Both the position numbers and the translations under genes were made by a program. Shown in pieces: positions 963 through 36,399 of a stretch of 39,339 nt of DNA (within the stretch, counting starts at the first letter, position 1; the number at the start of each line of letters is the position of its first letter). This DNA is from a virus. The notes under the pieces are model-generated. The model was given only the letters and a program-made list of their open reading frames with translations. It ran no database searches and was not told where the DNA came from. Location of the stretch: IMG/VR virus record IMGVR_UViG_3300043429_000489, positions 1 through 39,339 of that record, one strand, 5' to 3'.

Positions 963-1281
963 TACAAATATTCTCAGAGGGCTTGACGCTCTCTGATAAT
1001 TGTTATGCCAGTTCCGCACTGGCACGTGAAGTGAGATGGAAAGTGCGTAAGCGGGGATCGCCTCCCGTACCGGATCACTAAGCAGCGAGTGCGGTACACA
1101 TCGAATTTGTCGCAGCTATCGCCGGGGTCGCGTCCGGTAGCGCAGTTGGGTCTAGGCAGCAAGTCGCAAGTAAGCCGAGTGTCGCGCACGGCAAGCCAGG
1201 ATCTAAGAACCTGACGGGTTTGCGTGCCGTCGCGGTGTGGAAGGAGCTTTAACTTAACCCTTTCATTTCGGAGCAGCGACT
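963..1281 (+). other. 319-bp non-coding gap with dense RNA structure before the capsid gene
   Basis: This is the only long gap within the late operon. No open frame here looks like a protein. The stretch holds at least five helices readable by eye. 974-982/988-996 has a 5-nt loop. 1006-1012/1018-1024 is a perfect 7-bp stem with a 5-nt loop. 1054-1057/1063-1066 is a short hairpin. 1067-1072/1092-1097 is a perfect 6-bp stem enclosing 1076-1079/1088-1091. 1115-1118 plus 1122-1125 pair with 1134-1141. A long hairpin spans 1183-1234. The capsid ribosome binding site CGGAG (1269-1273) lies downstream of all of them. A weak promoter-like pair, TTCTCA (971-976) and GATAAT (995-1000), is present but overlaps the first hairpin. 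Confidence 0.75.
974..1234 (+). ncRNA. Candidate structured RNA / capsid mRNA leader
   Basis: This marks the outer limits of the helices described for the gap at 963-1281. The 3' hairpin pairs CGCG at 1183-1186 with 1231-1234, skips one bulged C, then pairs ACGGCA at 1188-1193 with TGCCGT at 1225-1230. An inner CAGG/CCTG stem lies at 1197-1200/1210-1213. I do not recognise a known ribozyme, riboswitch or intron core. It could be a stable leader protecting the capsid mRNA, an RNase processing site or a packaged RNA. Pairing is seen by eye; function is inferred. Confidence 0.4.
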
Positions 1282-2343: not shown

Positions 2344-2375
2344 CCCCGGCCAGTGATCCTGGCTGGGGCTTTTTA
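2344..2375 (+). terminator. Rho-independent terminator after the capsid gene
   Basis: A 10-bp stem (2344-2353 with 2359-2368, one G-T pair) closes a 5-base loop TGATC and is followed by CTTTTT. It lies 16 bp after the capsid stop codon and would separate capsid transcripts from the tail genes. Confidence 0.92.
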
Positions 2376-2766: not shown

Positions 2767-4812
2767 ATGCAGCCGCAAAAGTACGAACGCATTACCGACT
2801 TTACCGAGCGCGAGGGCGATGATACCGACCACTCCGCTCTGAATGACGAGTTCGACGCGGCTGCGCTCACCACTGACCAGATCCGTGCGAATCTGGCACT
2901 CATTCAACGTGACGATGGCGCACTCAAGAACGGCATCGTTACCGCAGACGCCCTGGATGATTCGGCTTTCGATGCCGTCCAGGCCAGCGTCAACGAAGCA
3001 ACCATTGAAGCTCAGGAAGCCGCTACAAGCGCACTGACATCGGCCACGACGGCCAATGCCGCCAAGGATGCCGCCGTAGTCGCTAAGACTCAAGCCGAGA
3101 CCGCTCGCGATTCCTCGAACCTAAACGCAGCAAACGCCTCAGCCAGCGCCACAAGCGCCCTGGCCAGCAAGAACGCAGCCGCAGCGAGTGAAGCAGCAGC
3201 CCTTGCCAGCAAAAACGCCGCAGCCGCCAGCGAAACGGCAGCCGCAGGAAGCGCCGCAAGCGCGTCCGGATCTGCCGCAACGAGCACGGCTCAGGCCGGT
3301 ATTGCCACGACTAAAGCAGGCGAAGCGGCCGCTAGTCAAGCAGCCGCCGCAGCATCATCCGGCACGGCCACTACAAAGGCCGCAGAAGCGTCCGCAAGTG
3401 AAGCAGCGGCCTTAGCGTCCAAGAACGCAGCGCAAGCGAGCCAGACGGCCGCAGCAGCCTCCGCAGCAACATCGACAACCAAGGCAGGGGAGGCAAGCGC
3501 CTCCGCAGCCGCAGCGCTCGCCTCAGAAGTGGCAGCCGACGCAAGCGAAGCCGGGGCATTGGCCTCGAAAAACGCAGCCGCGACGAGCGAAACGAACGCA
3601 TTAGCATCAAAAAACGCCGCGGCAACCAGTGAAGCCAATGCGCTCACGTACAAGAACCAGGCGCAAGCCAGCCAAACCGCAGCCGCAGCCAGTGAAACGG
3701 GCGCGGCAGGATCCGCATCGTCGGCCGCAGCTAGTGCAGCGGCAGCAGCCGCATCACTCGATAACTTCGATGACCGCTATCTCGGGCCAAAGGCAAGCGC
3801 TCCGACACTGGACAACGACGGCAATGCGCTGATCGTCGGCGCTCTGTACTACAACGACGGCACGATCGTCTCTGACAACAAGGGTATGTGGATCTATGAC
3901 GGGGCAACCTGGATCAAAGCGTCCTCCGCCTCGCAAGCCATCCTCACGACTTACAAATTCATTGCCACTGCCGGCCAGACCACTTTCTCAGGTGTGGATT
4001 CCCAAGGATTGACGCTCGGTTATCAGCCTGGATCCGTGCTTATCACGATGAACGGCCCAGTAATCACGATTGGCCTGGATGTCACTGCGACTTCGGGCAA
4101 TTCCGTCGTCCTTGCTTCGGGAGCCGCAGCAGGCGACGAGATCAATATCTATGCCTTCGCCACGTTCAACATTGCCAACACCTACACCCAGGCGCAGGCC
4201 GATGCGCTGCTTGCCGGCAAGGTAAGCAAGGCAGGCGATACGATCACGCAGACAAGCGTATCTGGCCGCGGCCTTTCCGTTGAGAAGCCTACGGGATCGG
4301 CTAATACCGCTTCAACGATTCGCGCGATTGGCCATTCCCCATCTATCGAGCTTCTGAATCGAGACTTCACTCAGAACTGGTACATCGGGATTAACGATAA
4401 CAGTGCCAAGGAATTACAGATTGGGCGCGGTTATGGCGTCAATCAGGGCATACCTGGAGCGCTTGTGATCGATACGAGCGACAACCTTCGCTTTAATTCT
4501 GGCTTTGGTTCTGCGGGCGTTGCGTATGCATGCCGTTCATGGATCCAATTCAATGGAATTACCAACCTGGTTCGTGGCGCAGCAAATGTTTCGAGCTTGA
4601 CCGATCAAGGAGTAGGACTGTTTAGAGTGAATTTCTCTAATGCGATGCCCGATGTCGGTTTTTCTACCCAGATTTGCTCCAGCGCAGCCGTAACTAACCA
4701 AGGTGGATTTAACCGAGTTCAGAATTGGGGAACCGGTTTTGTTGACATTGGACACTGGGAGAATAACGCGCTAGTGGATACGGATCTTATGGCTGTGGCG
4801 GTATTCCGCTAA
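2767..4812 (+). CDS. Long tail fibre with Ala-rich repeat shaft
   Basis: The protein has 681 residues; the ATG is preceded by AAGGAG. Residues 1-60 form an anchor domain (YERITDFTE..DDTDHSALNDEFD..DDGALKN) shared with the collagen-like protein at 6511. Residues about 85-330 are dominated by repeats of the SKNAAAASEAAAL type, as in long-fibre shafts with trimeric helical repeats. From residue 331 (LDNFDDRYLGPKAS) come beta modules, including ATAGQTTFSGVDSQG and SVVLASGAAAGDEINIYAF, the latter a common shaft module of T7-like fibres. The last 150 residues are unrecognised and probably form the receptor-binding tip. No chaperone peptidase domain is seen at the C-terminus; the small downstream genes may serve as chaperones. 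Confidence 0.88.
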   Translation: MQPQKYERITDFTEREGDDTDHSALNDEFDAAALTTDQIRANLALIQRDDGALKNGIVTADALDDSAFDAVQASVNEATIEAQEAATSALTSATTANAAKDAAVVAKTQAETARDSSNLNAANASASATSALASKNAAAASEAAALASKNAAAASETAAAGSAASASGSAATSTAQAGIATTKAGEAAASQAAAAASSGTATTKAAEASASEAAALASKNAAQASQTAAAASAATSTTKAGEASASAAAALASEVAADASEAGALASKNAAATSETNALASKNAAATSEANALTYKNQAQASQTAAAASETGAAGSASSAAASAAAAAASLDNFDDRYLGPKASAPTLDNDGNALIVGALYYNDGTIVSDNKGMWIYDGATWIKASSASQAILTTYKFIATAGQTTFSGVDSQGLTLGYQPGSVLITMNGPVITIGLDVTATSGNSVVLASGAAAGDEINIYAFATFNIANTYTQAQADALLAGKVSKAGDTITQTSVSGRGLSVEKPTGSANTASTIRAIGHSPSIELLNRDFTQNWYIGINDNSAKELQIGRGYGVNQGIPGALVIDTSDNLRFNSGFGSAGVAYACRSWIQFNGITNLVRGAANVSSLTDQGVGLFRVNFSNAMPDVGFSTQICSSAAVTNQGGFNRVQNWGTGFVDIGHWENNALVDTDLMAVAVFR

Positions 4813-11335: not shown

Positions 11336-12819
11336 TGAACTTCACACTAGACGGAGGCGCACAAGGCGCTCAAGCCGCAGGCGCAGGCGTAGGCAACGCG
11401 ATCAAGGCATTTGCTGCCGCTCCGATTGCACGCCAGACGGCCGAGCAAGACACGGCGCTCAAACTCGCGCGTATATACAACGCCAACATGACCGGCAACA
11501 AAGCAGGCGCAGAAGCCCGCGGCATCGGCATGACCAACGATTTCCGCTCAGGCATTGATGCCGAGATCGAAGCCAATCCCGACATGACGCCCTACGAGAA
11601 GGCCGTCCGCGTGGCTTTCAAATATGCAGGCCCGCAGTACATGCAGAACTGGACGAAATCAGCCCAGGGCGAGAAAGAGATCGCAGACATTAGCGCGATC
11701 CAGGCCGACCCGACTAAAGCACTCCCGACATCACAGGCCTACTTTGCCGTGAGCGGTAAAGCGCCATTCGATAACGTGGCCAACACTGGCCGCAGCCTGA
11801 ACCAAGTCACCGGCGAGCAAGTGGACGCCAATGCCGTGATGGCCAAGCTCTTTAACAACGTGCAGACCTCCGTTGCGAACGAGAACAATCAACAGGGCAG
11901 GGCAGCCGGCGCACTAGCCGATACCCGCGTATTTGAGCTGAACGCAGCTAAGGCACAAGGTGGCGATGGCGCAGCCTCCAACGGCAAGCCATTGACCAAT
12001 GCGCAGCTCCGCGTCAATCAAGACGTGGATGCAGCTCGCAACTACGTGAAAGATCTTCCGCGCGAGACAGTCGCGGCCGTGATGCGCAAGAACGCCTTAG
12101 AGCTATCCGAAGGCGAGAAAGACATCCTGGCTCGCATCAAGAAGGCACGCACTGCCAAGTACGGCGAGAGCAACGTGCCGAGCGAATACAACGACGCGCT
12201 AGGCCTGGATAAAGCCATCGTGGAGCGAATCATCGGCGCACTGAACAACCCAGCCGAGAAGCGCAATTTCTTCACTCCGAATCGTCCGATGACCGAAGAG
12301 GAAATCCTGGCCGCTCAGAAATCTTCACTGCCTGCCAGTGAAGCGCCGAACTTCGCCCAGTACGTGGCCGCAGCCAAGCAACGCCGAGCAGGCGGAGCCG
12401 GCAATACGCAGCTCACACATGACGGCCTACCCGCACGCCAGAACGCGGACGGCAGCGTATCGACTGAGATCAGCATCACTGTCACCGATCCGCGTCTCAA
12501 CGGCGGCAAGCCCACGAACATTCCTTCCCTCTGGGGCGGCCAAGTAGTCGATCAAGAGACCGCAGTAGCGAACGCACTGGCAACCGGCAAGCCGTATCAA
12601 TCCTTCGGGACAATCGATCAGGCCGTGGCCGCGGCTAAGACTCGCTCGAACGCAGGCGGCGCAGGCGCGAACAAAAATTCTCCAGCGCCAGCAAGCTCTT
12701 CGACAATGGAATTTAAGCCGACGCCTGACATGCTCAAAGTGCAGGCGGATTTCAAAGCAGGGAAACTTTCCCGCGATGAAGCGAAGAAAAAACTTAAAGC
12801 ATTAGGGATGCCTGACTAA
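11335..12819 (+). CDS. Internal virion protein 3
   Basis: The protein has 494 residues; its ATG shares a base with the upstream TAA. The N-terminus is Gly/Ala-rich (GGAQGAQAAGAGVGNAIKAF), followed by helical stretches. Residues about 363-435 contain a recognisable module (NADGSVSTEISITVTDPRLN, then GGKPTNIPSLWGGQVVDQE, ending in a YQSFGTIDQAVAAAKTRS segment) that recurs in phage internal proteins and transglycosylase-associated proteins. Its function is unknown to me. It is tightly linked to the giant gene, which starts at the base after its stop codon, so the two are likely co-translated and co-packaged. Confidence 0.6.
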   Translation: MNFTLDGGAQGAQAAGAGVGNAIKAFAAAPIARQTAEQDTALKLARIYNANMTGNKAGAEARGIGMTNDFRSGIDAEIEANPDMTPYEKAVRVAFKYAGPQYMQNWTKSAQGEKEIADISAIQADPTKALPTSQAYFAVSGKAPFDNVANTGRSLNQVTGEQVDANAVMAKLFNNVQTSVANENNQQGRAAGALADTRVFELNAAKAQGGDGAASNGKPLTNAQLRVNQDVDAARNYVKDLPRETVAAVMRKNALELSEGEKDILARIKKARTAKYGESNVPSEYNDALGLDKAIVERIIGALNNPAEKRNFFTPNRPMTEEEILAAQKSSLPASEAPNFAQYVAAAKQRRAGGAGNTQLTHDGLPARQNADGSVSTEISITVTDPRLNGGKPTNIPSLWGGQVVDQETAVANALATGKPYQSFGTIDQAVAAAKTRSNAGGAGANKNSPAPASSSTMEFKPTPDMLKVQADFKAGKLSRDEAKKKLKALGMPD

Positions 12820-15800
12820 ATGAAAATCGACGACTTCCTCGACTCGCAAGAACCTAATAAAGACCAGAAGCGAGCCGGGGCGGTTCGTGTTGACGATTTT
12901 CTGGGAGCGGATCCCGCTCCTCGTAGCAAGCTCCTAGACGCCATTACGAGCCTACTGCCGATGCAGCCTGGCTCCGTGCTCTCAGGCACGACAATGACGC
13001 CCGAGCAGTTGGCCGCGATTCCCGTAGATCCGACCCGCTCAATCCCTCAAGCCTCCATCACACAACCTCCCCAGCAGGAGATGCGTGCATGGACACCGCC
13101 TGAGCCGCGTGGCCCATTGCGTGCGATTGCCGATGCAGCCCTGGGCGTGTACCAGGGTGGCGCGGGTATGGTGAAAGGCGTGGCGGATAACGTCAACGCC
13201 GGCGACAACCCCGTAAGCAAGTTCTTCGGCAAGGCCATCGAAGGCGCGGACAAGCTCAAGTCGGACGATCTGCGCAATCAGCAGGCGTACCGCAATATGA
13301 TGATCTACGCCGCTCGCAAGAACCAGGGCGAGACGGGCGCAGCGCGTGCAGCCTTCAATACCCTCTTCGATCAGCCGGCCGCCGGTATCGATGTCGTAGC
13401 GCGTGGCGCGGGATCTCTGGCTCCGACCATTGGCTTAGGCGTCCTGGGCGCGGGTACAAGAACACTGGGCGCAGTCAATGCGCTCTCCAACGCAGGCGAC
13501 GCCGCAAGCCAGACGGCAGACACCTTGCGTGCACTCCCGCCTGAGATCTGGGCAAAGGACGCAAAGTACCAACAACTCATTGGCGACGGCATGACGCATG
13601 CCCAAGCCGTACAGATTCTTGCGCCACTCCTGGCCGTACCCGCTCAAGGCGTAGGCGCAGTCACCGGCGCAATCTCAGGCGTAACCGGCCTTGAGAAGAT
13701 GATTGCCGGTAAAGCCGTAGGCAACACAGTGCGCAACCGCGCAGGCCGCGTAGGCACTGAGCTATTGACCGAACAAGGCGAGACGATCGCCCCAATGGTG
13801 GCAGGCAACGCCACAGTAGGCAGCATCGACGGCACAACCCCGCTCATGGCAGGCGCAGGCCAAGCTGCCGTGGACACCCTGGCCGGCACAGTACCCGGCG
13901 CAGCGCTTGCCGCGCGTCGTGTACCGAATCAGCCCGCAGCTCCAGCGCCAGGCGCAGCCCCATTCACCCGCGAAGATCCGCAGCCGCTCGACCCGATCGA
14001 TCCAACGGCAGCCCCGCCCGTAGCGCCGCCAGCGCCGATGGCTCCCTTCGCAGCTCAAGATGAAGCGCCAGCCAGTGGCATCGCTGCCCTTGCTGAGCTG
14101 ATTGCCGATACCGCAATCCCGGATAGCCGCCTGGAAACCCAGCCGGAAGCAGCCGCGCCTACCATCGATTCATTCCTGGATGGCGAGACAGTTACCCCGA
14201 TTCCTGCAACGGAACCCGCTCAAAGCGTGGCAGAACCCGCTCAAAGCGAGACACTTGCAGCGGATTCCGTAACGCCTGCCGCAGATCCCGTCGTGGATCC
14301 TGCCGCCGCAGAAGCGGCCGTAATGAACGCCGAGGACGATCGTGCCGCTCAGGCCGCTCAGATCGACCCACAAGCAACGATTACCCCAATCCCTGAGCCA
14401 ACGCTCGCACCAGTCGCAGAAAGCGCTCCAGCGCCCGCTATTGAGCCGACAACCGCACAGAAGGCCGACGCAACGATCCCGAACCAGATCAATGCACCGG
14501 CCAAGATCGACCTGGCCAAGACCAAGCAGATCACCGAAGCGCAGCCCGGTATGCGTCCTGGCGATCTCGTGAGCATCAAGGGCACGCCATTCACCAACAA
14601 GAGCCGAGCGCAAGCCGTGGTCAAGGAGGCAGGCCCAGGATGGCGCGTGGCTCGATCCAATGGCGGATTCGTCGGACGCTATCAGCCTGCAAGCGAAGCG
14701 CAGATCCAGAACGCCCGCCGGCAAGCAGCCAAGCAGCGCACGATCGACACCGAGCGCGATTCCATGTTCGCAGCCATTGCCAAGATGGGCGGCATTAGCC
14801 GTCAACAGGCAATCAGCGAGTGGGGTATGGATCCCAAGTCATTCAAGAATTTGACCGGCGCGGGCATCATGCGCGTGGTTACGACGAAAGGCCGTGGCCT
14901 GGACGCCATGGCGGAGCTACTGGCCGAAGCCGGTTATCTCTCCTACGATGAAAACGGCAAGCATGACGTGGCCGAGTTCGAGGATCTATTCTTCAACGAA
15001 TTGGCAGGATCCCCGCACTACACACCAGAGGGCTTTGCCCGCGAAGCGCAAGCCGAAGAGGCGCAGCGCTACGAGGATTATCTGAGCGAGAAAGAGGCAG
15101 CCGCCTCCGGACTCAACGATCTGAACGAGCAAGACCAAGAGGCCGTAAGCGAGTTCATCGATACTTACCAAGATCTAACCGAGGATGACTATGCAAAACT
15201 TGAACAAGAAGCCATCGAGTGGGAACGCGCCGCAGAAGGCGCAGACTCCGGCATCGAAACCGACGACACCGGCGGCCGACTGGCGCAAGACGATGGATCA
15301 ATCGAAGCGGACGCCCGCGGAGAAGGCGAAGGCAACGCGGACGCTGATCAAACTGGCCAAGCTCCGGGACAAGAACAAGCAGGAGTTCGAGAAGAAGGGG
15401 CTGGAGAGCAACGGGCAGAAGAAGCCCAAGACTTCACCCTAGAAGGCGAGACCGAGCGCGAGACCCGCGAACGGGAAGAACGCGACGCCGCACGCCGCAA
15501 GGCCGACGAACAGAAGCAGCAAGAAGCCGAGAACAAGGCGAAAGCCGATGCCGAAGTCGATACCTTCGCATTGACTGGCAGTGACCGCGCAGCCGACACG
15601 ATGGCCGCACAAGGCCAGACAGGCCTATTCGATCAAGCCAATCAGGTAGAGGACACCGCAGCAGAAGAGCCAGCGCAAGCAGCAGCCCCCGCACGCCCGA
15701 CCGCCAGCAAGTCATCGGGCAAGAAACTCGAAGATGCCGGCGAAGAGCTGCAATTTAACAAGCGCAACCGCATGGGCAACGGCGTGAAGTGGGCCGACGT

Positions 15801-18800
15801 GCAGGATCTAAACGACGCGCTCAAGTCCGCAGAAGTGGTGAAGAGCAAGGTATGGCCGAAGCCCGACTACGAGAAGATGGTAGCCGACGGCCAGCAGCCG
15901 CTCATTGCCCATATCTACAAGCAAGTCTATGACTCGATTGCGGCCAAGCCCGCAACGCGCAACAACCCGACTGACGCAGAATTCCAGCTCTACATCGATG
16001 CCGTTCAGCGCGTGCGCGAAGGCCTCGATACCTGGGTGAACAATAGCGCCTCGATCGTGAAGTTTGTCGGACAACTGGGGGCGCGTGCCGCCGCCATGTC
16101 GGGCAAGAAGTTTGAAGTGGATCAGATCGATGCCAAGTCTCTCTATGACATCGTGTACCCCGATGGATGGAAGCCAGTAAAGGCCGAGATCCAGATCGCA
16201 GGCGGCAACAAGCTCCTGGGCGCATTGCAGCCTGGCTACACCGAAGCTCGCCGCGCGATGAAGCAGATCGATGCCGGATGGCCTGGCAAGCGTGAAGCCT
16301 GGCAGATGCGCGGCTTTAAAGTCATCGAGAACGAAGGCAAGTGGATCTACGCCAACAAGTACGGCCGCAAGATCAGCGAGCACGATACCCAAGCAGAGGC
16401 GATTGCAGCCGCTCGCGAAGCAACCAAGCGCGAAGCCAAAGAGGGGATCGATGAGACCCGCTCAAGCGTTAACGCCTTCGAGCGTATCGGCCCGGATCGT
16501 CGCATGCCAGGGGAGAACATTAGCCCCGAGAAGCTCATGCAAGACTTCGGATTCCGTGGCGTCAACTTCGGCAACTATGTCAAGAACGCCGACCGCCAGG
16601 CGCATGTCAATGCTGCCTTCGACGCCTTCCATGACCTGGCCGAATTGCTGAACGTACCGGCCAAGGCGCTCTCACTGAATGGCATGCTCGGGATTGCCTT
16701 CGGCGCACAGGGTAGCGGGCGAGCAGCCGCTCACTTTGTACCCGGCCTGAACGAGATCAACCTCACCCGTGACTCAGGCGCAGGCGCACTTGCCCACGAA
16801 TGGGGACATGCGCTCGATCATTATTTTGCAACCCAGGCAGGCCTGGCAACCGCAGAAGAAAAATTCCTCACCGCTCACGCAACGATGCCCGACACCCGCA
16901 TGGTCAACTCCGGCGGAATGTTTGTCGAGCAGCCGCGCTTTGGCACGAAGATCCGCCCCGAAGTCGTGGCCGCTTTTCGCACAGTCGTCAAGACAATGCA
17001 GAAGCGCAAGCAAACACCGGCCGAGATGCAAGCCTCGATCGATGCAAGCGTGGCACGTGCCGATAAAAACGTGGACATCCTTCTGGAGCGATTCCGCCGC
17101 GAGTTCAAGGACAAGGTAGAAGCCTTCGAGCCACTGGCCAAGCGCATCAAAGAGGGCGACATGGGCGAGGGCTACGTCTCTATCGGCCGCACCCGCGTCC
17201 CTGAGATCGTGAGCCAAGTACGTGACACCTATAAGAAAGAGTTTGGCCGCGTGCCGAACATCGAAGATCTCAAGGGCTTAGGCCTGGCGATCGAACACAA
17301 AGACTTTGCTGCTAAGCGAGCAGGCTCCGACGAGGCGCATATCCCGCAGGAAGTCTCGACCGACTACATGAAGCGCTCGAACGCCCAGGACGGCCAGAAG
17401 GGCGGCAAGCGCTACTGGAGCACCGAATGGGAAATGTTCGCGCGTGCCTTCGAGACCTACGTAGAGGACAAGCTGATTGAGCAGGATCGCCGTAGCGGCT
17501 ATCTCTCAACCCCGCTCGCTGCCATCGTGAACCCGCAGGAGCTTGAGAAAGCACAGATCAACAACGCCATTCAAGGCCTGATCGATACCCTGCAAGTGGA
17601 AGAGAAGGGCGATAACGCCGTGCTCTTCGACATCCGCGGCTTGACTGGCGACAGTATGTTTAACCGCGCACCGGAGACAGTCCGCGTCAACGCCCTGGCC
17701 CGATTGAAGCGCCTGGAAACGCAGCTCGAAGCCGGCAAGATTACCGAAGAGATTTACCGCTCAGGCGTCCAGGAGCTAATCGAGCAGCTCAAGACCCGCA
17801 ACCAATCTCAAGCCGTTAAGTCCGCAGTCAAAGGCCGCGAGCGTGGCTACGAGTGGATGCAAGAGCGCCTGATTCGCGCCAAGCGCAAGGGCGAGCTGGA
17901 CGTGTACCCCGTTGACTTTGCCTTGTGGGCACTCAAGAAGAACCCGAACCTGGCCAACGATCTCGGCATTAGCGTGCGTGAGAGCGAGGGCGAGGCGTCC
18001 GGTACGTACAACCCGGCAAGCCGCGTGATCAGCCTCTTCAAAGGCAGCGCAAGCGATACGACAGTGGTGCACGAGATCCTCCACCACACCGAGCGCATGA
18101 TGCCGGCGGAGATCCAGAACGGGATCATTACCGAATGGCAGAACGCCTGGGATAAAGCCTGGGCGATGGGTAACGGCAAGATCCGCCTTGCCTTGCAGGA
18201 CATGCACTCCGCCAACATGGGCGACAAGCTCGCGCATGATCGCGTCCGCCGCGCTTTTGCCGATGGCACGCTCGACTACGACGCGCATTATCAGCTCTTC
18301 AATGCGTCCGAGTACTGGGCCGTCAACGCCACCGAGATCATGAGCCGTCGCTATGACGCAACCTCATGGATCGCCAAGGCCAAGCGCTGGATCTCGGAGA
18401 TGATCGAGTACCTGAAGGGCGCGCTCAATCTGCCGTCCGACGCGCCGATTCTCCGCGCCTTGCGCGAAGTAATGGCCTCCACCGGCGAGCGTCAATCGTC
18501 GGACATGATCAAAGAAAACAACTTCGGCGCAGAGGACATCAAGAAGAAGCCGACCGCTGAGAACCCTGATCGTGACGAAACCTCCGACCTGGAGATCGAA
18601 GCGCCTGGCTACAAGTTTGAGCCAATCAGCGCAGCCGACTTCGTTGCGCTAGAGAAAGGCCCCGACGGCCGCCGCCAGTACGTGGCCGGCCGCAAGCTCT
18701 TCGATCGCATGGCGATTGCCGCCCGTGATTACCTGGGCGCGATCAAGATGGCCGACAACAAGCCCGAAGCCTTCAAGCAGATGATGCGTCAATTCCGCGT

Positions 18801-20979
18801 CGATCAATTCAAGGCCAAGGAAAACGCGAAGCGCATTGCTGAGACCGGAAAGGATCTGACGCCTGAGCAGCGTGCGATGGTATCGGATCTGATCGAGAAG
18901 GACTCCAAAGTAGGGGACGTGCCGCCGCAGGAGATCGTGGATCTCGTGGCCAACATGACGACCGCACTCGAATCGCAAGCTCGCGCCCTCGTAGAGATGG
19001 GCATGCTGTCCGAGAATCGTCTCGTGAAGAACTACCTCCCGCGTCTCTACAAGCATCACCTGGCCGCCAAGCTCACCAACCCGCAGATGATGCAGGCCTG
19101 GCTTACTAAGGCCCGCATGAAGATCCGTGGCGATCGCCTCAAGTCCCGCGGCATGTTCGTGGAGATGAAGGCCGAGAGCGTGGCACAAGCCAAGAAGCTC
19201 GGATGGAAAGTATCGAGCTTGACCGACGGCAACCCGATCCAGGGCGAGCTGCTCGAAGCCTTCGACAAGTCTCAGCCGATCCCGCCAAATTATCAGGGTA
19301 CGAAAGTGCTCATGTGGCGCGACTACACCGAAGCAGAACGCGCCGAGATGGGCGAGATCCGCGATGGCGTCCTGCGCTATGCCATGGGCTACGTGGAAAC
19401 CCAGAAGGATATGGCCACAGGCCGACTCTTCAAGGCGATCGCAAGCAATCCGGATCTGGCCAAGGCCTTCAATCCGGGCGGCTGGGTACTGATCCCCAAG
19501 ACCGAAGTGGCTGGAACTGACGGCCTTATGGCCTACGGCGCACTGGCCGGCATGTACGTCTCGCCGCAAGTAGCCGACTCACTCAAGCGCAATACGCAAC
19601 CCAAGGGCGTGCTCATGGCCGCCTACGACAAGGGCTTGAGCTGGTTCAAGGAAGGCAAGACAGTCTGGAATCCCGTCTCGCACGGCAATAACGTCGTCTC
19701 TAACCTCTTCGTGGCGTACTTCGCAGGCGTCAATCCTGCAAGCCCTGCCCGCTGGAAAGAGACGCTGAGCGAATTCCGCACCCGCGGCAAGTACTGGAAT
19801 GAGGCGCTGGACAATGGCCTCTTCGGTAACGAGATCGCGAACGCCGAGATCCAGAATCTTTTGATGCCCGACTTTGCCGACATGGCCGACATCGAGAGCG
19901 TGGCCGCGTCTCGCATGGCCAAAGTCATCGAGTTTTCCAAGAAGTACCCAGGCCGTCCGATCTCCTGGTATCGCGAGAACATGCAGAAGGCCTACGAGTT
20001 TGAGGATCAATTCTTTAAGCTCATGCTCTACATCGATCGTCGCAAGGCCGGCATGGATCCGCAGGCCGCGATTACCGACACTGAGCGCTACGTGTTCAAC
20101 TATTCGGACATGCCCGAAGGCGTGGAGCTGATCAAGCGCACCTATGCGCCGTTCTTCTCCTACACCTACCGCGCCGTCCCGATGATGTTGCACACTGCGA
20201 TGACCCGTCCAGATCGCCTGCTCGTGCCGATTACCCTCCTGGCTGGCGCTAACTGGCTCGCTTACGCGATCCTGGGCGCAGAGGAAGAGAAAGAGCGCAA
20301 GGCGTTGCCGGATTACCTGCAAGGCCGTACCGCCATCGGTACTCAGAAGGCCATCCGCATGCCGTTCAACTTGGACGACAAGCCGGCCTTCCTCGATATG
20401 AGCCGACGCGTACCGCTCGGTGACATGTTCGACGTGACCAACCAGGCGGGCGGCTTGCCCGTCCCTGCACCGATGATGCCGTCACATCCCGTCCTTTCCT
20501 TGATGGGTGCAATGGCCTTCAACGTGGACGGCTTTACCGGCAAAGAGATCGTCAAGAAGTCGGACGACGCCTGGGAAGCGGCCAGTGCTCGCTCGGGTTA
20601 CGTGTACCGCCAACTCGCACCGAACGCGCCTTTTGTGCCTGGCAGCTACAACTTCAACAAGATCATGGACGCATCGGCCAACGTATTCGGTACTGAGATG
20701 GGGCCGTACACCGGACTCACTCGCTCAGGCGATCCCGTCAATCCGATTGCGACCGCGCTGGACGTGACTGGCATCGGCAAGATCCGCACCTTCGATCCTG
20801 AGAAATCGCTCGACTACAAGCGGGCGGCCATTGGACGGGAAGAGAAAGAGATCCGCGCCAATATTCGCTCGGCTGGGCGTAACCGCTCAATGACCGAAGA
20901 TACGCGGACGGATTTCCTGGAGCGGCAGCAAGACAAGCTCGACGCCCTCAAGAAGAAGAAGGAAGAGCTGCGGGAGTGA
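12820..20979 (+). CDS. Giant polyvalent internal virion protein with two zinc-peptidase motifs
   Basis: The protein has 2,719 residues. The N-terminus carries a DDFL motif at residues 4-7 and again at 25-28; a third related copy, DSFL, lies at 450-453. Residues about 95-360 are Gly/Ala-rich and partly hydrophobic; about 365-560 are Pro/Ala/Glu linker; about 830-960 are highly charged. Residues about 1088-1160 resemble an LPD5-type region. Residues 1245-1332 (FRGVNFGNYV to HEWGHAL at 1326-1332), with EMFARAFE at 1538-1545, form an LPD1-like metallopeptidase. A second HExxH (HEILHH, 1751-1756) follows. The C-terminus includes a membrane-like segment at 2468-2487 and an LPD38-like region, ending in a Lys/Glu coiled coil. 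By analogy with T7 gp16-type proteins it is probably ejected with the DNA. Domain names are by recall. Confidence 0.8.
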   Translation: MKIDDFLDSQEPNKDQKRAGAVRVDDFLGADPAPRSKLLDAITSLLPMQPGSVLSGTTMTPEQLAAIPVDPTRSIPQASITQPPQQEMRAWTPPEPRGPLRAIADAALGVYQGGAGMVKGVADNVNAGDNPVSKFFGKAIEGADKLKSDDLRNQQAYRNMMIYAARKNQGETGAARAAFNTLFDQPAAGIDVVARGAGSLAPTIGLGVLGAGTRTLGAVNALSNAGDAASQTADTLRALPPEIWAKDAKYQQLIGDGMTHAQAVQILAPLLAVPAQGVGAVTGAISGVTGLEKMIAGKAVGNTVRNRAGRVGTELLTEQGETIAPMVAGNATVGSIDGTTPLMAGAGQAAVDTLAGTVPGAALAARRVPNQPAAPAPGAAPFTREDPQPLDPIDPTAAPPVAPPAPMAPFAAQDEAPASGIAALAELIADTAIPDSRLETQPEAAAPTIDSFLDGETVTPIPATEPAQSVAEPAQSETLAADSVTPAADPVVDPAAAEAAVMNAEDDRAAQAAQIDPQATITPIPEPTLAPVAESAPAPAIEPTTAQKADATIPNQINAPAKIDLAKTKQITEAQPGMRPGDLVSIKGTPFTNKSRAQAVVKEAGPGWRVARSNGGFVGRYQPASEAQIQNARRQAAKQRTIDTERDSMFAAIAKMGGISRQQAISEWGMDPKSFKNLTGAGIMRVVTTKGRGLDAMAELLAEAGYLSYDENGKHDVAEFEDLFFNELAGSPHYTPEGFAREAQAEEAQRYEDYLSEKEAAASGLNDLNEQDQEAVSEFIDTYQDLTEDDYAKLEQEAIEWERAAEGADSGIETDDTGGRLAQDDGSIEADARGEGEGNADADQTGQAPGQEQAGVREEGAGEQRAEEAQDFTLEGETERETREREERDAARRKADEQKQQEAENKAKADAEVDTFALTGSDRAADTMAAQGQTGLFDQANQVEDTAAEEPAQAAAPARPTASKSSGKKLEDAGEELQFNKRNRMGNGVKWADVQDLNDALKSAEVVKSKVWPKPDYEKMVADGQQPLIAHIYKQVYDSIAAKPATRNNPTDAEFQLYIDAVQRVREGLDTWVNNSASIVKFVGQLGARAAAMSGKKFEVDQIDAKSLYDIVYPDGWKPVKAEIQIAGGNKLLGALQPGYTEARRAMKQIDAGWPGKREAWQMRGFKVIENEGKWIYANKYGRKISEHDTQAEAIAAAREATKREAKEGIDETRSSVNAFERIGPDRRMPGENISPEKLMQDFGFRGVNFGNYVKNADRQAHVNAAFDAFHDLAELLNVPAKALSLNGMLGIAFGAQGSGRAAAHFVPGLNEINLTRDSGAGALAHEWGHALDHYFATQAGLATAEEKFLTAHATMPDTRMVNSGGMFVEQPRFGTKIRPEVVAAFRTVVKTMQKRKQTPAEMQASIDASVARADKNVDILLERFRREFKDKVEAFEPLAKRIKEGDMGEGYVSIGRTRVPEIVSQVRDTYKKEFGRVPNIEDLKGLGLAIEHKDFAAKRAGSDEAHIPQEVSTDYMKRSNAQDGQKGGKRYWSTEWEMFARAFETYVEDKLIEQDRRSGYLSTPLAAIVNPQELEKAQINNAIQGLIDTLQVEEKGDNAVLFDIRGLTGDSMFNRAPETVRVNALARLKRLETQLEAGKITEEIYRSGVQELIEQLKTRNQSQAVKSAVKGRERGYEWMQERLIRAKRKGELDVYPVDFALWALKKNPNLANDLGISVRESEGEASGTYNPASRVISLFKGSASDTTVVHEILHHTERMMPAEIQNGIITEWQNAWDKAWAMGNGKIRLALQDMHSANMGDKLAHDRVRRAFADGTLDYDAHYQLFNASEYWAVNATEIMSRRYDATSWIAKAKRWISEMIEYLKGALNLPSDAPILRALREVMASTGERQSSDMIKENNFGAEDIKKKPTAENPDRDETSDLEIEAPGYKFEPISAADFVALEKGPDGRRQYVAGRKLFDRMAIAARDYLGAIKMADNKPEAFKQMMRQFRVDQFKAKENAKRIAETGKDLTPEQRAMVSDLIEKDSKVGDVPPQEIVDLVANMTTALESQARALVEMGMLSENRLVKNYLPRLYKHHLAAKLTNPQMMQAWLTKARMKIRGDRLKSRGMFVEMKAESVAQAKKLGWKVSSLTDGNPIQGELLEAFDKSQPIPPNYQGTKVLMWRDYTEAERAEMGEIRDGVLRYAMGYVETQKDMATGRLFKAIASNPDLAKAFNPGGWVLIPKTEVAGTDGLMAYGALAGMYVSPQVADSLKRNTQPKGVLMAAYDKGLSWFKEGKTVWNPVSHGNNVVSNLFVAYFAGVNPASPARWKETLSEFRTRGKYWNEALDNGLFGNEIANAEIQNLLMPDFADMADIESVAASRMAKVIEFSKKYPGRPISWYRENMQKAYEFEDQFFKLMLYIDRRKAGMDPQAAITDTERYVFNYSDMPEGVELIKRTYAPFFSYTYRAVPMMLHTAMTRPDRLLVPITLLAGANWLAYAILGAEEEKERKALPDYLQGRTAIGTQKAIRMPFNLDDKPAFLDMSRRVPLGDMFDVTNQAGGLPVPAPMMPSHPVLSLMGAMAFNVDGFTGKEIVKKSDDAWEAASARSGYVYRQLAPNAPFVPGSYNFNKIMDASANVFGTEMGPYTGLTRSGDPVNPIATALDVTGIGKIRTFDPEKSLDYKRAAIGREEKEIRANIRSAGRNRSMTEDTRTDFLERQQDKLDALKKKKEELRE

Positions 20980-33034: not shown

Positions 33035-33294
33035 AGCGGATGCTTGACTTAGAAGATTTCCCGATTGGATCGCGCGTCATGACCCCTTCGGGACGCATCG
33101 GAATCGTCGTCAAGCACCACGCCACCAGCAAGATCGATCTCTTTCAGCGGATCTCCGTTCAATTTGGGAAGAACCCACGCGATGGCGTCGTACTCCAGCC
33201 GCAATTCCTTGTGATGCTGCAAGAAAGCGCAATCAAAAATCCAGAAACCCCCCTAACCCACACGAAAATGAACCAAGGAGAACCAAAAGAATGA
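33031..33294 (+). CDS. Small beta-barrel protein of unknown function
   Basis: The protein has 87 residues, coupled to its neighbours by ATGA overlaps at both ends. The core (FPIGSRVMTPSGRIGIVVKH, then ISVQFGKNPRDGVVLQPQFL) looks like an SH3-like barrel of the sort that binds nucleic acids or tails of other proteins. The C-terminus is a polar linker. It belongs to the nin-like block. No family name can be given. Confidence 0.55.
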   Translation: MKRMLDLEDFPIGSRVMTPSGRIGIVVKHHATSKIDLFQRISVQFGKNPRDGVVLQPQFLVMLQESAIKNPETPLTHTKMNQGEPKE

Positions 33295-35017: not shown

Positions 35018-36399
35018 AGCCGATATGGACGCCACTAGCGGGTAGCCAAACCCTATTTCTCCAGTGCCCGATCTACGAGGCATTGCTGGAGGGTACGCGG
35101 GGAGGCGGCAAAACCGACACCCTGCTCATGAGTTTTGCCCAGAACGTGGGGCGCGGCTTCGGGCAGCATTGGCGTGGCGTGCTCTTCCGTCTTACCTATC
35201 CGCAACTGGCGGACGTGGTAGCCAAGAGCAAGCGATGGTTTTATCAGATCTTCCCAGAAGCGAAGTTCAACGAGTCGGACTACTCCTGGAAGTGGCCGAC
35301 GGGCGAGATGCTTTTCTTTCGCTATGGCGATAAAGAGGACGACTACTGGAATTACCACGGCCATGAGTACCCCTGGTTAGGATTCGAGGAGCTGACTAAC
35401 TGGCGCAGCTTGAGCTTTTACGAAGCGATGCAATCCACCTGCCGCAGCTCCTATCCAGGCATGCCCAGGATGGTGCGAGCTACGTGTAACCCTTTTGGGC
35501 GGGGACACGGCCCAGTCAAGGAGCGTTTCAAATTAGGGCAAGGCGGCGTGCCATCGGGTCAAGTGATTACCGATGAGGGCGGCAAAGAGCGCGTGCGGAT
35601 TCATTCGAGCATTTACGAGAACACGATCCTGCTCGAAGCCGATCCGGAGTACCTCAAGACTCTCGAAGCATTGAAGGATCCGAACCGCCGGCGAGCATGG
35701 CTCGAAGGCGACTGGGACATCCACGTTGGATCCTTCCTGGAGATGGTATGGAATCCGTCGAAGGCGATCGTGACGCCCTTCACGATCCCGTCAACCTGGA
35801 AAGTATGGAAGTCGATGGACTGGGGCTATGCCGCCCCGTATGCCGTCTATTGGTTCGCCCTGGATCCGGATGGCGTCTATTACATTTGGCGCGAGCTATA
35901 CGGCGCAGGCGAGAAGGCCGGCACGGGTACGCGTGAGAACGCTGCCGACGTGGCCAAGAAGATCCGCCGCATTGAAGAGCACGATGAGCGCCTGGGCTAC
36001 GAGTACCGCATGAACCTGGCGGATCCGGCCATCATGAGCAAGATCGGCGCAGATCGCTCCATCGGCCAGATCTTCCGAGAGAACGGCGTCAAATGGCAGG
36101 AAGCCTGGAACGCTAAGGGATCTCGCGTCAATGGCGCTCAGGAGATCATCCGGCTACTCGCTGAGGACAAACTCAAGGTGTTCAGCACATGCAAACACTG
36201 GCTAAGAACAGTGCCGAGCCTGCCGCCCGATGATGACAATCCCGAGGACGTGGACACCGATGCAGAAGATCACGCATGGGATGCCACGCGCTACGGAATC
36301 ATGCGTCGTCGTCGCTCGCCAGATGAAGTACAAAAATCCTCTGACCCCGAAGAATCGACTTATAAAGAGGACGACGGAACATACAGAATAAAAGTTTAG
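35014..36399 (+). CDS. terL: Terminase large subunit
   Basis: The protein has 461 residues. The ATPase has a Walker A GTRGGGKT at residues 27-34, a Walker B with the acidic pair in WLGFEEL (Glu125-Glu126) and a coupling motif ATCNP (156-160). The nuclease half has Asp269 (SMDWGYAAPYAVYW), Asp337 (LADPAIM) and DHAWDATRYG (419-427). It pumps DNA through the portal and cuts it at the end of packaging. The length is typical. The start overlaps the previous stop (ATGA). Confidence 0.95.
   Translation: MKPIWTPLAGSQTLFLQCPIYEALLEGTRGGGKTDTLLMSFAQNVGRGFGQHWRGVLFRLTYPQLADVVAKSKRWFYQIFPEAKFNESDYSWKWPTGEMLFFRYGDKEDDYWNYHGHEYPWLGFEELTNWRSLSFYEAMQSTCRSSYPGMPRMVRATCNPFGRGHGPVKERFKLGQGGVPSGQVITDEGGKERVRIHSSIYENTILLEADPEYLKTLEALKDPNRRRAWLEGDWDIHVGSFLEMVWNPSKAIVTPFTIPSTWKVWKSMDWGYAAPYAVYWFALDPDGVYYIWRELYGAGEKAGTGTRENAADVAKKIRRIEEHDERLGYEYRMNLADPAIMSKIGADRSIGQIFRENGVKWQEAWNAKGSRVNGAQEIIRLLAEDKLKVFSTCKHWLRTVPSLPPDDDNPEDVDTDAEDHAWDATRYGIMRRRRSPDEVQKSSDPEESTYKEDDGTYRIKV

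Follow-up and report, generated by a model that had tools for sequence, protein, structure and literature searches.

The stretch analysed here, hereafter the window, is a linear virus record of IMG/VR (39,339 bp) and comes from a temperate phage that carries an integrase, excisionase, repressor, RecE/RecT, terminase, portal and major head protein. Between the stop codon of ORF 603-962, which is Gp10-like by Pfam, and the ATG of the major capsid protein (MCP) gene at 1282 lies an intergenic gap of 319 bp (963-1281). The MCP has no recognisable RNA-binding domain (no Pfam match), and its AlphaFold model, with a mean pLDDT of 43, is too poor for fold comparison. Elsewhere in the window, an ORF of 2,719 aa (12820-20979) dwarfs all its neighbours and is poorly conserved, at 29-34% identity in the relatives' matches seen.

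The initial annotation described the gap as 319 bp without protein, and this is borne out. No convincing gene was found in the window sequence of 963-1281, and no coding frame is conserved among 72 relatives, any frame on either strand being open over the last 275 nt in at most 13 of the 72; a protein-coding gene in the gap, which that annotation had named as a refuting finding, was rejected because no frame is kept open across these relatives. ARAGORN identified no tRNA or tmRNA in the gap. A search against Rfam 15 gave no match in the window at the gathering threshold and none at E<=5 for 900-1330, while in six relatives it gave three sub-threshold matches, zero of them within the leader. 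The features discussed below are collected in Table 1.

Table 1. Features of the capsid leader and its surroundings, in window positions unless a locus is named.
Feature	Position	Strand	Basis or remark
Late-type phage promoter: box CAAATATTC 965-973, spacer 974-994 (21 nt), -10 GATAAT 995-1000	964-1000	+	
P0, long 5' arm, apical hairpin around GGGGATCGCCTCCCG	1011-1097	+	93.2% of cells paired, 22/28 pairs double-changed
Core domain, closed by P1 (1098-1103/1233-1238)	1098-1238	+	covariation, covariance model
J1/2, candidate anti-Shine-Dalgarno, complementary to 1268-1281	1108-1121	+	duplex energies, partner swaps
P2 hairpin, loop GUCGCG	1121-1138	+	pairs 1122-1137 and 1123-1136 among best-covarying of 14,095
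Pseudoknot, 5' strand	1140-1144	+	98.2% of cells paired; three pairs with double changes
P3 arm, hairpin 1174-1177/1189-1192	1146-1206	+	covariation
P4 hairpin (1213-1217/1227-1231), loop = pseudoknot 3' strand 1221-1225	1213-1231	+	covariation, ~73% group
P6 hairpin (1239-1244/1259-1264), just before Shine-Dalgarno	1239-1264	+	GC to UA at 1244-1259, 14 sequences
Shine-Dalgarno GGAG (1270-1273) and linker to start codon	1268-1281	+	sequence; GGAGC conserved in relatives
MCP gene, 348 aa	1282-2328	+	phrog_9953 major head protein, E 4e-39
Strong intrinsic terminator, right after MCP gene	2344-2368	+	comparable one in 35/55 relatives
Hairpin-rich gaps, BUCT555, Mx8 and Mx9	L273 1280-1435; L271 1320-1500; L272 1270-1435		

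Covariation and the conserved fold

Compensatory base changes in homologous phages, set beforehand as the test of the proposed RNA, were found in the leader and go beyond a phylogenetic null. Across 45 sequences the fold keeps 91.8% of cells paired, against 79.7% with partners shuffled and 40-44% with partners slid, and contains 176 double-changed cells, against 63 and 17-66 in the shuffled and slid controls, respectively. For P0, the corresponding figures for paired cells are 93.2%, 80% and 29-46%. The null was written for this analysis in the manner of R-scape, using a tree, parsimony and the redistribution of substitutions over columns. The top six of 14,095 column pairs all fall in P2, the pseudoknot and P3, with four of them beyond every null and the fifth at an E of 0.05; none in P1, P4 or P6 is individually significant in this null, and the outer part of P3 (around 1146-1157/1194-1206) is suggested only by the covariation ranking. 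P0, P1, P2, P3, P6 and the pseudoknot retain 93-98% of their pairs in relatives.

The strongest single argument for the fold is the pseudoknot (1140-1144/1221-1225), which joins the 3' flank of P2 to the P4 loop and was absent from the structure used for building the covariance model. Its exchanges run CG/GC, GC/AU and AU/CG, its pairs 1144-1221 and 1141-1224 exceed all nulls, and double changes occur at all five P4 pairs despite varying loop length. Among the pairs, G-U outnumber A-C by 214 to 22, which identifies the RNA as that of the + strand. The motif RUCGC appears 4.0 times per leader, against 1.1 in shuffles, and recurs in J1/2 as well as in the apical loops of P0, P2 and P3.

The helices first proposed for this gap are largely different ones. 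The stems named at 1006-1024, 1067-1097 and 1183-1234 do exist in the window sequence but are not conserved, as relatives keep only 51%, 55% and 46% of their pairs and form them in full in 1 of 25, 0 of 25 and 0 of 44 cases, respectively. The folding energy, another of the tests set beforehand, went against the element, being no better than that of shuffled sequence (MFE -114.6, shuffled mean -111.1, z -0.60 and 25 of 100 shuffles doing as well; z -0.53 on the - strand). A nested single-sequence fold with the core enforced reaches -90.3 against a free MFE of -102.7, 12 kcal/mol worse, a difference of little weight as the pseudoknot is not scorable in that calculation. The lack of an energy advantage over shuffles is the one point in favour of a chance structure, or of a DNA-level element with no role as RNA, a reading that the compensatory changes beyond the phylogenetic null and the 214 to 22 excess of G-U over A-C render scarcely credible. 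It is thus covariation, not energy, that marks the structure as more than chance, and single-sequence folding would have missed the element. Since these changes are found where there is neither an Rfam match nor a conserved ORF, the interpretation of 963-1281 as a real, conserved, non-coding structured RNA is strongly supported. The idea of an undescribed structured leader before the capsid gene in the initial annotation therefore survives, on covariation and the lack of an Rfam match, while most of its proposed helices do not.

Transcription unit and linkage to the capsid gene

The promoter upstream of the fold follows the pattern CAAAAATSC-N21-TATAAT-like, which is present in 64 of 72 distinct leaders with a spacing of exactly 21 nt, other spacings being rare. 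Within the window the motif occurs at 965-1000, 36331-36366, about 33234-33269 and 12672-12707, where it precedes the MCP and portal genes and other late genes, namely ORF 33291 and the giant ORF, and it also lies before the portal in two relatives. A -35 hexamer is lacking at the expected distance, which suggests that the late promoter depends on some kind of activator. Transcription appears to start at about 1007, immediately before P0, or close to P1 in minimal forms of the element. The hairpin at 974-996, originally taken as the first RNA helix, was accordingly rejected as part of the leader RNA, being the promoter spacer and 5' of the predicted start. In one clade this 21-nt spacer (window 974-996) forms an inverted repeat around a central TTGAC, with arms that vary between phages yet stay complementary (GGCAGTGTATTGACACTGCC in L029); it may serve as an operator, or as an RNA hairpin in read-through transcripts. 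With a promoter upstream of the fold and a terminator after the MCP gene, the leader appears to be the 5' part of a stand-alone capsid mRNA.

Loci were collected by MCP search (62 viral and 10 bacterial), and an alignment search added a group at approximately 73% identity. Nearly all loci of the first MCP-search set contain a gap of about 300 nt with blastn similarity to 960-1281, and the element adjoins the 5' end of the same MCP family in more than 60 relatives from IMG/VR and betaproteobacterial prophages, down to 42% MCP identity. A pattern search independent of the MCP, followed by nhmmer, located the element nowhere but immediately 5' of MCP genes, and the 27 stretches returned by a stricter pattern were all loci already known from the MCP-linked set. 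In each of 20 genomes the covariance model detected exactly one copy, and on about 800 proteobacterial genomes its true matches, including L279 (MCP 46% identity), were MCP-linked only, each directly before the MCP start and on the same strand. Weak model matches in other bacterial genomes (L280-L287) were dismissed as chance, as they represent unrelated, mostly protein-coding sequence without an MCP. In L055, about 120 nt of extra sequence (2878-3000) separates the RNA element from the MCP start.

This distribution bears on the possibility that a trans-acting or structural RNA is cut from the capsid transcript for assembly or packaging, with its CGCG-containing loops able to multimerise. Such a role would suit the elaborate fold with its repeated RUCGC loops, and phages do have large ornate RNAs of unknown role (PMC12286853). 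However, the element is always single copy, directly before the MCP start and on the same strand, no free-standing copy was found by pattern searches or by the covariance model on about 800 proteobacterial genomes, and nothing matched GOLLD, ROOL or others in Rfam, so that we consider this role quite improbable.

The element varies considerably in size and sequence. Minimal versions of about 120 nt, in which P0 is shorter or missing, are found in L152 (MCP 42% identity) and L035/L037. The group at about 73% MCP identity scores weakly with the covariance model (E 2e-4 to 0.5), but 27-29 of its 29 distinct sequences have P2, the pseudoknot and P4, built from markedly divergent sequence and with a G-C/A-U exchange in P4; P1, misregistered in the alignment, was judged by eye only. 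Named strains bearing the prophage belong to Achromobacter, Quisquiliibacterium (among them Q. transsilvanicum DSM 29781), Oxalobacter and Pusillimonas, and the hosts of the virus family are soil and water bacteria. More distant MCP relatives, at about 29% identity or less (Mae-Yong1326-1, RHph_N65, Mx8, Mx9, BUCT555, ppBjS10J-1 and ctMlz233), were unmatched by the model, and the gaps before their MCP genes are short in some and hold different leaders in others. Among these, the Myxococcus phages Mx8 and Mx9 and the Stenotrophomonas phage BUCT555 have hairpin-rich gaps of approximately 140-165 nt ahead of the distantly related MCPs, the gap in BUCT555 beginning with TTGACA-N17(palindrome)-TAGAAT.

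Complementarity to the Shine-Dalgarno region and proposed control

J1/2 links P1 to P2 and is a highly conserved strand, reading UUUGUCGCUG in most relatives; it complements the Shine-Dalgarno linker, GGAGCAGYGAC or GGAGCGACAA. The pairing of each J1/2 with its own linker beats that with swapped partners (0 of 10,000 permutations, a figure without correction for relatedness). In L279 both sides have changed and still match, CAGUCACC/GGUGACUG, with -16.5 for its own duplex and -5.9 to -10.3 with the partners of others, so that swaps between relatives destroy the match; in L152, both sides have likewise changed to CGCU-GUACC/GGUAC-AC-AGCG, with -16.9 against -10.2 to -14.4 with the J strands of others. 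The pairing is strong in the main clades and re-created with different sequence in these two loci, the most distant members, yet it is not universal, since the L035 and L230 groups show it weakly or not at all; the window's own duplex is moderate (-13.6). We regard pairing of J1/2 with the Shine-Dalgarno region as probable. P1 encloses J1/2 but not the Shine-Dalgarno, so that such pairing with P1 intact would form a second pseudoknot.

Building on the computed fold, its strand, the MCP link, the promoter motif and this complementarity, we infer that translation is regulated by a two-state switch and propose what its factor might be. The late-type promoter would start the capsid mRNA near 1007, and the leader would fold into P0, then the pseudoknotted core P1-P4, then P6 with the Shine-Dalgarno. 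In the closed state, J1/2 would lie on the Shine-Dalgarno and start region, creating the second, larger pseudoknot and blocking ribosome entry, while in the open state J1/2 would be kept in the core and the ribosome could bind. Which state wins would be decided by a factor that recognises the conserved core and the repeated RUCGC loops, most likely a phage protein; since the element and the MCP gene are inseparable, the capsid protein itself is a plausible candidate. As a whole, this pseudoknotted cis-acting leader, gating capsid translation through two states set by a factor, is an account to which we give slightly better than even credence. It is favoured over the roles in mRNA stability, processing or packaging raised in the initial annotation on the grounds of a conserved strand able to pair with the Shine-Dalgarno region. 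Autogenous control by the MCP is possibly at work and attractive given the strict cis link, and recurrent RUCGC loops would suit a multimeric protein. The more specific proposal that the MCP or a capsomer binds the RUCGC-looped leader of its own mRNA and locks the Shine-Dalgarno in the second pseudoknot, coupling synthesis to assembly, is tentative and, at this level of detail, somewhat unlikely.

The same features can be read in other ways. If the 5' fold instead shielded the capsid mRNA from decay, or were cut by a host RNase, for a high late capsid yield, the Shine-Dalgarno pairing would be incidental; the dedicated promoter, the long stem of P0 where the 5' end is predicted and the stand-alone mRNA with its terminator all fit such a stability or processing leader, for which the T7 gene 10 leader is a precedent. 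A hairpin that merely stabilises could do without the conserved pseudoknot, the near-invariance of J1/2 and the loops and the re-created Shine-Dalgarno complementarity, and minimal relatives have a shortened P0 or none, which makes this role an unlikely explanation. A metabolite-sensing riboswitch controlling capsid translation would account for the compact pseudoknotted core, the near-invariant loops and the adjoining strand able to occlude the Shine-Dalgarno. The element, however, precedes a single gene family only, where riboswitch classes usually precede several metabolic genes, and there is no obvious reason for tying a capsid gene to a metabolite; we find this reading very improbable.

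Relation to known phage and bacterial leaders

Control of the late structural genes of tailed phages is usually ascribed to transcription and to ribosome-binding-site strength. In this lineage, an intricate and deeply conserved RNA that accompanies a single capsid gene suggests control at the level of capsid translation itself. In position, the closest comparison is the T7 gene 10 leader, a small 5' hairpin behind the phi10 promoter of the phage RNA polymerase. Both have a dedicated late promoter and a structured 5' end just before a capsid gene, but the fold described here is large, covarying and pseudoknotted. In the ribosomal-protein leaders of S15/rpsO and the S4 alpha operon, pseudoknots involve the ribosome-binding site and the operon's own product is the repressor. 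The present leader would share a pseudoknotted structure involving the ribosome-binding site, should J1/2 pair as predicted, and, as proposed, repression by its own gene product, and it differs in serving a phage capsid gene and in that binding by the MCP is here a proposal.

Among phage leaders, that of gene 32 in T4, T2 and RB69 likewise places a pseudoknot upstream of the start codon, where it controls translation of the gene that it precedes, a control that is inferred in our case (PMC3014915, PMC535899). The gene 32 product is an ssDNA-binding protein, and the small pseudoknot nucleates its cooperative binding over an unstructured site; a 2010 review considered this possibly the sole viral pseudoknot in translational autoregulation (PMC3014915, PMC535899). 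In contrast, the element here precedes a capsid gene, has a fold of approximately 110-270 nt and presents one strand complementary to the Shine-Dalgarno. The logic we propose would be closest to T4 gene 32 autoregulation and the ribosomal-protein leaders.

Comparative genomics surveys have produced structured RNA candidates of a similar kind, some of them in phages, with a capsid gene unmentioned in the main text of either (PMC2864571; PMC8040213), and our literature searches found no description of such a capsid-leader element. Phages and prophages also encode GOLLD and ROOL, likewise large and elaborate pseudoknotted RNAs, whose role is unknown and which are often separate RNAs near tRNA islands (PMC12286853), whereas the present element is joined to a single capsid gene and is not recognised by their models. 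The element is directly testable with the covariance model, the minimal versions of about 120 nt and the named prophage-bearing bacteria. We rate it as a new family of putatively cis-regulatory phage leader of an already known general kind. Should the capsid protein be its ligand, the leader would represent the dsDNA-phage equivalent of regulation by the MS2 coat protein or of gene 32.
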